Source: Cellvibrio sp. KY-GH-1 (GTDB lineage: Bacteria; Pseudomonadota; Gammaproteobacteria; Pseudomonadales; Cellvibrionaceae). Taken from it: a stretch of DNA of 64,000 nucleotides. A program made the position numbers and the translations under genes. Shown piece by piece: positions 26,877 to 48,250 of the stretch. How positions within the stretch are numbered: the first letter of the stretch is position 1; every line of letters begins with the position of its first letter. The stretch lies in NCBI RefSeq assembly GCF_008806975.1, contig NZ_CP031728.1, positions 2,418,001-2,482,000 on the forward strand. Reading direction: 5' to 3'. The notes under the pieces are model-generated. The model made no database searches. It was given only the letters and a program-made list of their open reading frames with translations, and had not been told where the DNA came from.

Positions 26877-27671
26877 TTAATCTCGCCCTAAACGCTCAAG
26901 CAGCTTTTGGTTTTCCATTTCGATGTGTTTGTAAAAATCCACATCAGCCAACTGCGATGCTGCAGCCTCATCAATCACCAGTACCACATGCTCATGCATT
27001 TGCAACGCGGATGCTGGGCAGGCTGCTGTTAACGGGCCTTCTACCGTTGCTTTAATCGCCTCGGCTTTGTTGGCACCAGTTGCCAATAGCACTACTTTTT
27101 TGGATTCGAGAATAGTACCAATACCCATGGTGATGGATAAATGCGGCTGATACTCATCAGGGCCAAAGAACCGCGCGTTGTCATCGATAGTGGCGCGAGT
27201 CAGGGTTTTAACGCGAGTGCGCGACATCAATGATGACGAAGGTTCGTTAAAACCAATATGCCCGTTACGACCAATACCCAGTAATTGAATATCAATACCG
27301 CCTTTTTGCTTGATATTGTGTTCGTACTGCTCGCAGGCTGAAAACGGATCTTCTGCATCCCCTGGTGGCACTGCCGTTTGCGATTTTTCGATGTCGATAT
27401 GATCAAACAATTGTTGATTCATAAAATAGCGATAGCTTTGTGGATGAGTGCCAGTCAAACCCAGATATTCGTCCAGGTTAAAACTGCTCACATTTTTGAA
27501 AGACACGCGACCAGACTGATACGCAGCAATTAATTCTTTATACAAAGCCACCGGCGTAGAACCAGTCGCCAAACCCAATACCGAATCAGGTTTGCGTTTA
27601 ATTTGTTTGATAAAAATATCAGCGCCGTATTTAGCAACTTCGGCGGCATCTTTCAGGATAACAACTTTCAT
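26877..27671 (-). CDS. nagB: Glucosamine-6-phosphate deaminase
   Basis: Converts glucosamine-6-phosphate to fructose-6-phosphate and ammonia, the last step of GlcNAc entry to glycolysis. It is a 264-residue NagB-I (E. coli type) sugar isomerase-fold enzyme. The phosphate-binding [16 protein letters not shown], the catalytic segment FNLDEYLGL (Asp and nearby His) and [12 protein letters not shown] are all present. GGAG lies 6 bp before the ATG. It is the last gene of the nag cluster but is separated from nagA by 163 bp that contain a long hairpin element. Confidence 0.95.
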
Positions 27672-27717
27672 TAAGCACTCCGGTGAGTGTTGGAACAGAG
27701 AAGGAAATTGGTACTCA

Positions 27718-27827
27718 GATTTGTTGTTCGTTGACTATTAGCAGACTGCCGGAGACAGGGACGTCGACGACAAGCCTACAGGGATGCATTTACGGCGCGT
27801 CTGCAAATAGGCAACGAACAACAAATC
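27718..27827 (-). repeat. Long hairpin element with conserved 52-nt core, copy 1 (nagA-nagB)
   Basis: Arms at 27718-27746 and 27799-27827 form a 29-bp inverted repeat with two mismatches (outer part GATTTGTTGTTCGTTG). They enclose a 52-nt core, read on the minus strand from GCGCCGTAAATGCATCCCTG through GGCTTG and GTCGAC to CTCCGGCA. The core matches a second element at 47208-47259 at 44 of 52 positions, while the arms are unrelated. The core is in the sense direction of nagA and nagB. It could be a structured RNA, a processing or termination signal, or a DNA element. Confidence 0.8.
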
Positions 27828-27834
27828 GGTTTAA

Positions 27835-28992
27835 CTAATTGTGAGTATGCATATCACCCGCAATCCAGGTGCGAGTCACTTTAAAATCGTCAGTAAAATG
27901 AACTAAATCAGCGCGATAATTTGCACGAATACGGCCAAGATAATTATCCACCTGCATAAACTCGGCAGGATACAGCGATGCCATACGCAAGCTTTCGGCA
28001 AGTTCAACACCCACCCAATGAGTATTCAAACGCACCGCGTCAATCATCCCGATTGCACTGCCCGCCAAACGCCCTTCTGCATTCACCAGGCAACCGTCTT
28101 TTTCATAAATGGTCTCGCCGTAAATCTGGAAAGATTTCTCGGGCGATCCAACCGTCGACATAGCATCAGTCACTAAATACATTTTGCCTTTAGGCTTGGC
28201 CGCATAAGCAATGCGCGCAGAGGCTGCGTGCACGTGATAAGTATCAATAATAATGCCGCACCAACTATTCGTATCTTCAAGCGCCGCACCAACAACACCC
28301 GGTTCACGACCGGTAGTTGGACGCATAGCGTTATACAAATGCGTAAATCCGGAGAGACCTTCTTTTAGGGCAGCAACTACATCATCGTAATGACCATCGG
28401 TATGACCTGCACACACCACGACACCCGCAGACGTTAATTGTTTAATTTGCCCGGCATCAGCATGTTCTGGTGCGAGGGTCAGCATGACTTTAAATTCGTG
28501 TTGCGCTTTTACAGACGCAGCCAGCCAATCAATATCAGCCTGTTCCATTTTGCGAATGTAGCGCTCATTGTGCGCACCGCGTCGCGCCATATCAAAAAAT
28601 GGCCCTTCCACATGCACCCCCAAAACGCCTTTCACACCTGCAGCCACTGCATCGGCAACAGCGCGAACACCCGCTTGATGCACTTCACGTGTATCGCTAA
28701 TCAAGGTTGGCAAAAACGAAGTGGTGCCTGTTGGGCGATGACCATCGAGCATGGTTTGAATGGCATCTACACTGGTGTTGTTGGTAAAAAAGGCCCCCCC
28801 ACCGCCATTCACTTGTAAATCGATAAAGCCCGGTGCCAACACACCGCCGCTTAACTCCACGCGCACAAAATCAGGAGACAAATCACTTGCCGGCACCACT
28901 GCCTCAATAGCATCACCATTGATAATTAATGCCTGGTTTTCCAGAAATTCTTCGCCGGTAAAAATTCGTGCACCGACTAACGCTTGTTTCAT
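27835..28992 (-). CDS. nagA: N-acetylglucosamine-6-phosphate deacetylase
   Basis: Removes acetate from GlcNAc-6-phosphate to give glucosamine-6-phosphate in the cytosol. It is a 385-residue amidohydrolase-fold enzyme of normal length. Visible motifs are GFIDLQVNGGGG at the barrel entry, HVEGPF with the metal-binding Glu, CAGHTDG and FTHLYNAMRPTTGREPG with metal or substrate His residues, and LVTDAMSTVG with the catalytic Asp. A GGAACGAG ribosome site precedes the ATG. It lies 51 bp downstream of nagX, on the same strand. Confidence 0.95.
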   Translation of the reverse strand: MKQALVGARIFTGEEFLENQALIINGDAIEAVVPASDLSPDFVRVELSGGVLAPGFIDLQVNGGGGAFFTNNTSVDAIQTMLDGHRPTGTTSFLPTLISDTREVHQAGVRAVADAVAAGVKGVLGVHVEGPFFDMARRGAHNERYIRKMEQADIDWLAASVKAQHEFKVMLTLAPEHADAGQIKQLTSAGVVVCAGHTDGHYDDVVAALKEGLSGFTHLYNAMRPTTGREPGVVGAALEDTNSWCGIIIDTYHVHAASARIAYAAKPKGKMYLVTDAMSTVGSPEKSFQIYGETIYEKDGCLVNAEGRLAGSAIGMIDAVRLNTHWVGVELAESLRMASLYPAEFMQVDNYLGRIRANYRADLVHFTDDFKVTRTWIAGDMHTHN

Positions 28993-46486: not shown

Positions 46487-47104
46487 ATGTCCAACAATTA
46501 CAGCACTGAAGAGCTTGTAAGTTACGGTATCGGTCGCCAAATGGGCCAACAATTGGCCGACAATCCGTTTGATGGTGTGTCCCCAGCGGCAGTTGCCCAG
46601 GGCTTGCTGGATGCATTAAATGGTGTAGAAATGCCCTACAGCAATGAACAAATGCAAGCTGCCTTTGGCGAGATTAACGAGCGCATGCAAGCCAAAGAAG
46701 CCGAACAAAGCAAAACTTTAGCGGCAGCAGGCGAGGCGTTTTTAGCCGAGAACGCCAAAAAAGCCGGGATCACCGTGACTGCGTCCGGTTTGCAGTACGA
46801 AGTAATTACCCAAGGCTCCGGTGCGATTCCAACCAAAACCTCCAAGGTTAAAACCCATTACCACGGTACTCTGATTGACGGCACAGTGTTCGACAGCTCG
46901 GTAAATCGTGGCCAGCCCATCGACTTCCCGGTAGGCGGCGTTATCGCGGGTTGGACTGAAGCACTTCAATTAATGCCGGTTGGCTCCAAGTGGCGTTTGT
47001 ACATTCCGCACAACCTGGCGTACGGTGAGCGTGGCGCAGGCGCTAGCATCAAGCCTTATTCGGCGCTGATTTTTGATGTTGAGTTGCTGGATATTGTTAG
47101 TTAA
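46487..47104 (+). CDS. fklB: FKBP-type peptidyl-prolyl cis-trans isomerase
   Basis: A 205-residue isomerase that speeds proline isomerisation in protein folding. An N-terminal helical dimerisation domain (YSTEELVSYGIGRQMGQQLA to about residue 85) precedes the FKBP domain. The domain is complete: KVKTHYHGTLIDGTVFDSS, FPVGGVIAGWTEALQLMPVG, and IPHNLAYGERGAG with the usual active-site aromatic residues. There is no signal peptide, matching cytosolic FklB. A long hairpin element lies in the 3' region before rdgC. Confidence 0.93.
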   Translation: MSNNYSTEELVSYGIGRQMGQQLADNPFDGVSPAAVAQGLLDALNGVEMPYSNEQMQAAFGEINERMQAKEAEQSKTLAAAGEAFLAENAKKAGITVTASGLQYEVITQGSGAIPTKTSKVKTHYHGTLIDGTVFDSSVNRGQPIDFPVGGVIAGWTEALQLMPVGSKWRLYIPHNLAYGERGAGASIKPYSALIFDVELLDIVS

Positions 47105-47186
47105 TTCCGTTCACAAAAAAATGAGAATTGAATAACCAATTCAATTCCCCACCAAAACTTTTCTGTTTATTAAACACCAGCATGGA

Positions 47187-47280
47187 TTCCGGGGTTCTCT
47201 TTGAGACGCGCCGTGAATCCGTCCCTGGAGGCTTGCCGTCGACATCCATGTCTCCGACAGTCTCAAAGAGAACCCCGGAA
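47187..47280 (+). repeat. Long hairpin element with conserved 52-nt core, copy 2 (fklB-rdgC)
   Basis: Arms at 47187-47207 and 47260-47280 are perfectly complementary over 21 bp (starting TTCCGGGGTTCTCTTTGAGA). The 52-nt core at 47208-47259 runs from GCGCCGTGAATCCGTCCCTG through AGGCTTGCCGTCGAC to TCTCCGACA. It matches the nagA-nagB element at 44 of 52 positions. In both copies AGAC closes the stem before the core and GTCT reopens it after. Confidence 0.85.
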
Positions 47281-47341
47281 CCCCTGCTTTATCGCACCTG
47301 GATAGCCGGTTGAAAGATATTTTTTTGTTATTGGATTTTCC

Positions 47342-48250
47342 ATGTGGTTTAAAAATTTACGGTTGTATCGCTTAACCGAAGAGTGGACTATTTCCACCGA
47401 AGAATTGAATGAAAAACTCGCCGAGTTTTGCTTTAACCCCTGCGGTAGCCTTGATCCTCTGCGCTATGGTTTTGAATTCCCGCTCGGTCGCCACGGCAGC
47501 GAGTTTGTGCATGTTACCAATGGCTACATCATGATTTGCGCCAAGAAGCAGGAAAAAATTCTCCCTGGCGGCGTGATCAAAGAGGCGCTGGAAGAAAAAG
47601 TTCAAGCGATTAACGATGCGGAATCGCGCCCGGTAGGCCGCAAAGAGCGCGACTCTTTAAAAGATGAAATTATTTTTTCATTGCTACCCAAAGCCTTTAC
47701 CCGTTCCACGCTGGATTACGCCTACATAGCACCGCAAGAAAAATTAATTGTGGTGAATTCATCGTCTGCGAAACGCGCGGAAGATTTGCTGAGCAAATTA
47801 CGCGAAGCATTAGGCAGCTTGCGCTGTTTGCCTATCGCCCCCAAAAATATTCCCACCCAAGTGATGACTCACTGGTTGCGCGAAAGCCAGGCGCCACATC
47901 AATTTGAGTTGGGCGAGGAAGTAGAGCTGCAAGCCACCAAAGATGGCCGCGTAGTGCGCTGCAAAAAGCTGGACCTTACCGCTGCGGAAATTCGCAATCA
48001 TCTCGAGAGCGGTATGCACGTCAGTAAAATTGCACTGGTGTGGAAAGAGGCCATCAGCTGCATTATCGATGACCAGCTGGGTATCAAGCGCGTGAAGTTT
48101 GAAGATGTGATTAGCGATAAAGCTAACGAGCGCAACCCGGAAAGCAAAGCCGAACAATTTGATGCCGACTTTGCCATTATGGCGATGGAGCTGAAAAATT
48201 TTATCACCGCTTTACTCGCCGCGTTCGGTGGCGAAAGCGACCCAATTTGA
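47342..48250 (+). CDS. rdgC: Recombination-associated protein RdgC
   Basis: A 302-residue ring-forming DNA-binding protein that dampens RecA activity. Length equals E. coli RdgC (303). Motifs: MWFKNLRLYRLTEEW at the start, YGFEFPLGRHG, and the central KEALEEKVQAINDAESRPVGRKERDSL-type region. The C-terminal part ends with an acidic helix. It is a single gene after the hairpin element and before a bidirectional terminator. Confidence 0.95.
   Translation: MWFKNLRLYRLTEEWTISTEELNEKLAEFCFNPCGSLDPLRYGFEFPLGRHGSEFVHVTNGYIMICAKKQEKILPGGVIKEALEEKVQAINDAESRPVGRKERDSLKDEIIFSLLPKAFTRSTLDYAYIAPQEKLIVVNSSSAKRAEDLLSKLREALGSLRCLPIAPKNIPTQVMTHWLRESQAPHQFELGEEVELQATKDGRVVRCKKLDLTAAEIRNHLESGMHVSKIALVWKEAISCIIDDQLGIKRVKFEDVISDKANERNPESKAEQFDADFAIMAMELKNFITALLAAFGGESDPI

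Follow-up and report, generated by a model that had tools for sequence, protein, structure and literature searches.

A dispersed hairpin repeat of Gammaproteobacteria with two GGA loops appears to be a divergent relative of the TwoAYGGAY RNA and a candidate CsrA/RsmA ligand

Two long hairpins in a 64,000-nucleotide stretch of the Cellvibrio sp. KY-GH-1 genome (the window; G000:C1:2418001-2482000 of a 5.76 Mb genome) are copies of a dispersed repeat family. Comparison of the sequences gives good support for two further points: the repeat is a divergent, high-copy relative or sister of the TwoAYGGAY RNA family (RF01731), and its working strand is the one that carries A-N-GGA-Y loops (the GGA strand). 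The whole reading, a divergent TwoAYGGAY sister whose GGA-strand transcripts would serve as a platform or decoy for CsrA/RsmA, is advanced tentatively, as a serious possibility that stops short of probable.

In the first hairpin (element 1, Table 1), two 29-bp arms that pair except at two positions enclose a 52-nt core (27747-27798), which reproduces the preliminary description of this site. The second core copy that it had listed at 47208-47259 was confirmed as well (element 2). By eye, 44 of 52 core bases are identical between the two elements, and their arms have little in common except an AGAC/GTCT foot. A 26-base core pattern, with up to three mismatches allowed, matched the window twice and 100 dinucleotide shuffles not once; a chance origin of the core in the window is excluded. 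The covariance model introduced below placed the elements at G000:C1:2445726-2445819 and G000:C1:2465187-2465280. The names nagA and nagB are those of the preliminary description and the sequences are consistent with them; the FKBP-type and rdgC labels were assigned by eye, and the outermost GCC/GGC pairs of P2 in both elements are a proposal made by eye.

Table 1 Parts and neighbours of the two window elements (positions are those of the window).
Feature	Position	Strand	Location or basis
Element 1, whole hairpin	27718..27827	+ (probable folding strand, GGA loops)	between nagA and nagB
Element 1, outer stem P1, 5' arm on GGA strand	27718..27746	+	
Element 1, outer stem P1, 3' arm on GGA strand	27799..27827	+	
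Element 1, inner hairpin P3, loop AGGGAC	27747..27772	+	sequence and pairing in the 12-copy alignment
Element 1, inner hairpin P2, loop AGGGAT	27774..27796	+	sequence and 12-copy alignment
Element 2, whole hairpin	47179..47288	-	gap between an FKBP-type peptidyl-prolyl isomerase gene and rdgC
Element 2, arms	47179-47207 and 47260-47288		flank the core 47208-47259
Element 2, 52-nt core, three-way junction with P2 and P3	47208..47259	-	
Element 2, inner hairpin P3, loop AUGGAU within ACAUGGAUGU	47234..47259	-	sequence
Element 2, inner hairpin P2, loop AGGGAC	47210..47232	-	sequence and 12-copy alignment
nagA	27835-28992	-	neighbour of element 1
nagB	26877-27671	-	neighbour of element 1

A covariance model built from 12 copies of this genome found 26 matches in it at E ≤1, where E-values are rough; three of these are weak (E 0.001-0.005), two of them being long-core forms. 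The pattern search (up to three mismatches) recovered six copies, and a BLAST search with one of the elements gave 15 places (E ≤10). When 13 short copies were laid out, eight had 17-29 bp arms that pair almost or entirely without mismatch; L001 has 29-bp arms by eye, and L013, L015, L016 and L017 have weaker arms. Counting this genome, 34 of 57 related genomes and 30 of 185 in a class-wide sample of Gammaproteobacteria contain a match. The relatives have between 0 copies (G009 among others) and 69 (G022), and per-genome counts in the class-wide sample are limited to a first look. Further copies had thus been rightly predicted, both within the genome and across other Gammaproteobacteria. A scan of named genomes returned at least 119 matching stretches; the 80 titles that name a genus, among the matches listed, are presumably all Gammaproteobacteria. 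Viral contigs gave three matching stretches, and plasmids, searched with two other queries, 13 Pantoea records and one Marinobacter record. No match was found in plasmids with the window element as query, in the phage collection with two queries, or in E. coli genomes with one. Among the papers listed by literature searches that do not extend to subscription papers, we found none on this repeat.

Counted over all fetched sequence, the majority of distinct core matches (229 of 288) combine a near-fixed 52-nt core with strong arms, and 59 lack strong arms beside a normal-length core; of the 198 that fit the exact pattern, 154 reached an arm score of 12. In a typical copy, the core forms a three-way junction with two small hairpins on arms of ~27 bp, the sequence of which varies between copies while complementarity is retained. 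Core length is mostly 52 or 53 nt, with a junction of the ACGCCGTGAA type. The three-helix fold pairs 94.4% of 396 cells in the 12-copy alignment, compared with a shuffled mean of 67.1% and 31.6-44.9% in slid controls. Changes on both sides were seen at 19 of 21 outer pairs and at 22 of 33 pairs over all helices, with switches between U-A and C-G at P2 pair 32-43, C-G and A-U at P2 pair 33-42, and G-C and A-U at P3 pair 49-72. In the larger set of 215 copies described next, the closing bases of P3 covary in most (90 CG...ACG, 55 TG...ACA, 30 CA...ATG, 8 CT...AAG). Its GGA loop is closed by at least three pairs in 207; the core pattern is silent on this loop, and the model that supplied part of the loci scores it. 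Compensatory arm changes, which the preliminary description had proposed as a check, are present in the 12-copy alignment, in the larger set and in orthologues of element 2. The pairing and these changes support its suggestion that selection acts on a folded strand whose core is recognised. They indicate that the stems are nearly free in sequence, and that pairing and the A-N-GGA-Y loops are constrained.

The two strands were compared over 215 distinct copies with an arm score of at least 12 (18 own, 32 from G012, 13 from G038, 47 from other relatives and 105 from contig scans). Weaker-armed copies were dropped, and the score counts Watson-Crick pairs only, so that it favours neither strand. 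The arm mismatches include 238 G.U on the GGA strand vs 31 on the other, counts that kinship among copies inflates. By element, 120 of the 215 lean toward the GGA strand and 13 toward the other, and 18 arm singletons give 25 vs 3 in the same direction. The lean was found in the own copies (16 vs 4), G012 (17 vs 0), the other relatives (66 vs 9), the contig scans (129 vs 14) and, at p 0.18, G038 (10 vs 4). Predicted RNA energy is lower on the GGA strand in 171 copies and on the other in 44. Together, these comparisons give good support to the GGA strand as the working strand, opposite to the one chosen in the preliminary description. A first reading of the 12 copies, which hold few G.U, as strand-indifferent DNA pairing was overturned by the larger sets; a replication-strand bias was likewise rejected, with no clear bias by eye over own and relatives' matches under an assumed origin. 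Other mismatches are also skewed to the GGA strand (G.A 93 vs 8, G.G 30 vs 3, A.A 18 vs 11), and pyrimidine mismatches (purine-purine on the GGA strand) cluster at arm positions 4-9 with a peak of 14/120 at position 7. Since G.A and G.G are enriched about like G.U, the skew is not predicted by RNA wobble alone.

Relative to both neighbouring genes, called here as the longest open frames, the GGA strand is sense in 34 copies of this set and antisense in 47, with 74 of the 215 lacking context and 23 having one neighbour only; sense is not preferred. The G.U asymmetry is 44 vs 6 in sense copies and 55 vs 11 in antisense copies, without significant difference (Fisher p 0.60). As it also holds in copies antisense to both neighbours, a simple role in the mRNA does not fit. 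An independent RNA and a single-stranded mobile intermediate are both compatible with the asymmetry. An RNA element would not be expected to show such independence of orientation, which calls for an explanation. Sigma-70-like promoters 5' of the GGA strand were found in 65 vs 49 copies, which is no significant excess (p 0.14).

At the curated cut-offs, Rfam gave no match in the window. Below its cut-off of 43, RF01731 aligns to element 1 at 27708-27837 (+, 27.2 bits, E 0.012) and to element 2 at 47171-47296 (-, 30.9 bits, E 0.0019), in both cases on the GGA strand over model positions 1-168. The preliminary description could name no family; a related one does exist, though the elements match it only below the cut-off. 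At E ≤0.1, RF01731 has two matches in this genome (34.4 and 30.9 bits) and matches in 20 of 21 genomes of the genus, exceeding the cut-off in 5 of 21; none of 14 control genomes had any match. Four of the five genomes with TwoAYGGAY above cut-off are poor in the element (G009 0, G005 1, G003 5 and G017 7 copies), and the fifth, G020, has 35 copies. The motif TGGCAC was counted within 50 nt of the GGA-strand hairpin: of 208 copies, 22 have it on the 5' side and 13 on the 3' side (~2 expected). It also lies near the 5' end of 10 of 20 chosen RF01731 matches and at the 3' end of none (~0.3 expected); 15 of these 20 matches come from G009 and are thus not independent. Other Rfam matches on the arms, to microRNA precursor families, were taken as chance matches to long hairpins.

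The repeat shares with TwoAYGGAY a long outer stem, a three-way junction and two hairpins with A-N-GGA-Y loops on the same strand, TGGCAC 5' of some hairpins, and the same intergenic slot in sister species. It differs in scoring below the curated cut-off, in its 52/53-nt core with a ACGCCGTGAA-type junction, in arms that are mostly unrelated between copies, and in loops that are often AGGGAY rather than AYGGAY. In the window, the P3 loop of element 2 (AUGGAU) fits AYGGAY, and the other three loops are AGGGAC or AGGGAU. TwoAYGGAY itself was marked as a probable RNA that is probably not cis-regulatory (Weinberg et al. 2010, PMC2864571), and another paper mentions tandem G.A pairs in one of its stems and proposes that it binds CsrA (PMC4333381).

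The gap between the FKBP-type gene and rdgC is fully readable in 20 of 21 genomes of the genus; the G020 contig ends inside it. Judged by eye, the element lies there in the same orientation in 12 genomes (decaying in G010) and reversed in G018 and G006, other repeats including RF01731 matches occupy the gap in G009, G003, G017 and G005, and G012 and G015 have no element. Together with G020, five related species carry RF01731 matches here, above cut-off in G009, G003 and G020 (in the last beside rdgC at the contig end, C147:24170-24304). The gap (window 47104-47342; orthologues L091-L120) is a hot slot with occupants that vary by species: this element in both orientations, TwoAYGGAY, and a repeat that by eye resembles a CGTC-type REP. 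For five species in register (G013 omitted for an indel; G016 equal to G007), the inner 25 pairs give 250 species-pair cells, of which 150 are unchanged, 55 changed on both sides and paired, and 45 have at least one unpaired member. The 14 unpaired positions read on the GGA strand as 6 G.U, 7 G.A and 1 C.C, with 0 G.U on the other strand. The GGA strand is antisense at this locus, and the mismatch lean persists.

At 13 of 15 nagB loci, nagA stands beside nagB. The element is present in 2 of the 13 (this genome and G016), with different arms, and by eye absent from 11; the two copies are probably separate insertions. The filled gaps measure 166 (own) and 164 (G016), ten of the others 40-79 bp, and that of G019, which by eye lacks the core, 128 bp. 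Inverted duplication of one target flank was rejected, as the filled gaps are longer by about the whole element with both arms. With an excess of this size, no arm seems to be left in the empty site, a reading limited by spacers too divergent to prove the absence of a leftover arm. In addition, the gaps L095/L096 at FKBP-rdgC are identical in G007 and G016, the nagA-nagB gaps of which differ entirely, and a recent exchange at FKBP-rdgC is possible.

Two convergent gene pairs on Pantoea agglomerans plasmids carry a variant of the element in some strains and lack it in others. In L244 and L254 the element is flanked on either side by a 28-bp terminator-like hairpin, of which the element-less strains L253 and L255 have a single copy; the doubled hairpin may be a target duplication, or the repeat via which the empty strains lost the element. 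The second 28-bp repeat is absent from P. vagans L257 and Lij88 L256, and in L248 the element seems to have been lost between CCGT repeats. Some Pantoea strains, but not others, have a 78-nt second module in place of one P3-loop base; at FKBP-rdgC, several species have a different second module in their P3 or P2 loop. Nested modules with their own GGA hairpin were noted inside GGA loops at L095, L096, L097, L100, L101 and L102 and, in Pantoea, at L249, L251, L254 and L256; they are polymorphic between P. agglomerans strains at loci ~97-99.5% identical. Inverted element pairs ~130-340 bp apart occur in G012, G038 and G032. Pairs at this spacing, BIME-like in arrangement, were noted at L270, L273, L276, L301, L305 and L307. 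Variation in copy number, nesting and strain-level presence or absence are element-like, and the earlier verdict that the pattern is the reverse of a transposon was too strong.

These features, including the nesting in Pantoea and at FKBP-rdgC, would be accounted for by a non-autonomous mobile element, the folded single GGA DNA strand of which is acted on by a recombinase or HUH-type enzyme. The strand-specific fold would then be selected on the mobile intermediate, independent of gene orientation, as the G.U asymmetry is; the patchy copy number, the inverted pairs and the enrichment of G.A and G.G like G.U also fit. Folded strands serve as substrates in integron attC bottom strands and REP hairpins. 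The repeat may be likened to attC, where structure is conserved beyond sequence and one folded strand works, but its loop and junction sequences are conserved and no cassette arrays were noticed. Weighing against mobility, a search for the Y1/RAYT domain alone (PF01797, E 1e-5) found no match in G012, G015 and G032, which hold 67, 58 and 54 copies; a copy in the same orientation at FKBP-rdgC in 12 genomes, with compensated stems in 5, is more than mobility alone needs; and no clear target duplication, as a MITE would leave, is seen by eye at nagA-nagB. PF01797 matches 39 of 57 relatives, Y1 transposases do not track copy number, and mobilisation by RAYT was rejected on the three high-copy genomes. 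We regard a mobile element of this kind as possible but somewhat unlikely. A broader version, which we rate as unlikely, is a gammaproteobacterial mobile element copied as one folded strand that shifts CsrA/RsmA docking sites, with loops and junction fixed, stems nearly free and modules that insert into each other's GGA loops. TwoAYGGAY would then be one branch of an element superfamily rather than an ordinary sRNA.

The repeat shares with REP/BIME systems and their RAYTs short intergenic hairpins, inverted pairs and patchy copy number. It is unlike them in its ~110 nt with a three-way junction, in that no GTAG foot was noticed, and in the three high-copy genomes without a Y1 match; the GTAG and CGTC REPs of PMC3733652 are likewise unlike this repeat. 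A REP-like hairpin indifferent to orientation could still block exonucleases or serve as an RNase III cleavage site in intercistronic mRNA, with the GGA loops as an incidental feature. The stems are long and often perfect, and among the 25 own copies with both neighbours (gene calls being the longest open frames), 21 lie between co-directional genes and 18 within 100 bp of both; three lie between divergent and one between convergent genes. Conservation of the GGA loop (207 of 215) and one-strand asymmetry in both orientations would be left unexplained, and we hold this explanation to be distinctly improbable. Of the co-directional copies, 12 have the direction given in the preliminary description and 9 the opposite: its statement that copies are in sense with flanking genes holds for its own strand in both window copies and fails as a rule.

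A further possibility is that templated repair, through quasipalindrome correction or strand switching, and not selection preserves the complementarity of the arms. Perfect arms in 50 of 215 copies would fit, as would six G038 copies that have an identical 52-nt core and different near-perfect arms, which implies that arms are altered or replaced more quickly than the core. Such repair predicts strand-symmetric mismatches, which the G.U counts contradict. The arms of G012 retain a weak shared consensus, which argues for fast compensated change from common ancestors, and G007 and G016 share arms with few changes at two loci; templated repair is thus very improbable. An intrinsic terminator or attenuator, suggested by a strong intergenic hairpin, is scarcely credible given that the hairpin is not followed by a T run (mean T in 12 nt over 207 copies, 2.22 on the GGA strand and 3.59 on the other) and that element 1 lies inside the operon-like nag gene pair. 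Insertion into a pre-existing terminator was rejected, there being no T runs and arms that by eye are unlike terminators.

The reading as a TwoAYGGAY sister that engages CsrA/RsmA starts from the fold that the sequences show for the GGA strand, a long outer stem, a three-way junction and two hairpins capped by A-N-GGA-Y. Each loop would be a CsrA/RsmA-type site, and the pair may hold one dimer. GGA-strand transcripts could then act as a local platform or decoy, in which the outer stem would keep the junction together and shield the RNA; the repeat would be long-persisting yet also spreading. Binding of CsrA/RsmA to the GGA loops is a reasonable but provisional inference. The P3 sequence ACAUGGAUGU resembles the CsrA consensus. 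GGA hairpin loops are also found in the CsrA/RsmA-binding RNAs CsrB, RsmY and RsmZ, from which the repeat differs in having two loops and not many, in being multi-copy and dispersed, and in that no promoter of its own was found. CsrA-family genes occur in 55 of 57 relatives, near-universally and also in copy-less genomes, so that the presence of CsrA does not discriminate; G002 has 9 copies and no CsrA match in an assembly that is 85% complete. G006 and G022 have nine CsrA-family matches each vs 0-5 in the other 55 genomes.

The kinship ties an orphan Rfam family, RF01731, to an abundant repeat of Gammaproteobacteria with up to 69 copies per genome. It supplies hundreds of covarying sequences, from which the working strand can be fixed by sequence alone, and the proposal that TwoAYGGAY binds CsrA would become directly testable in culturable species.
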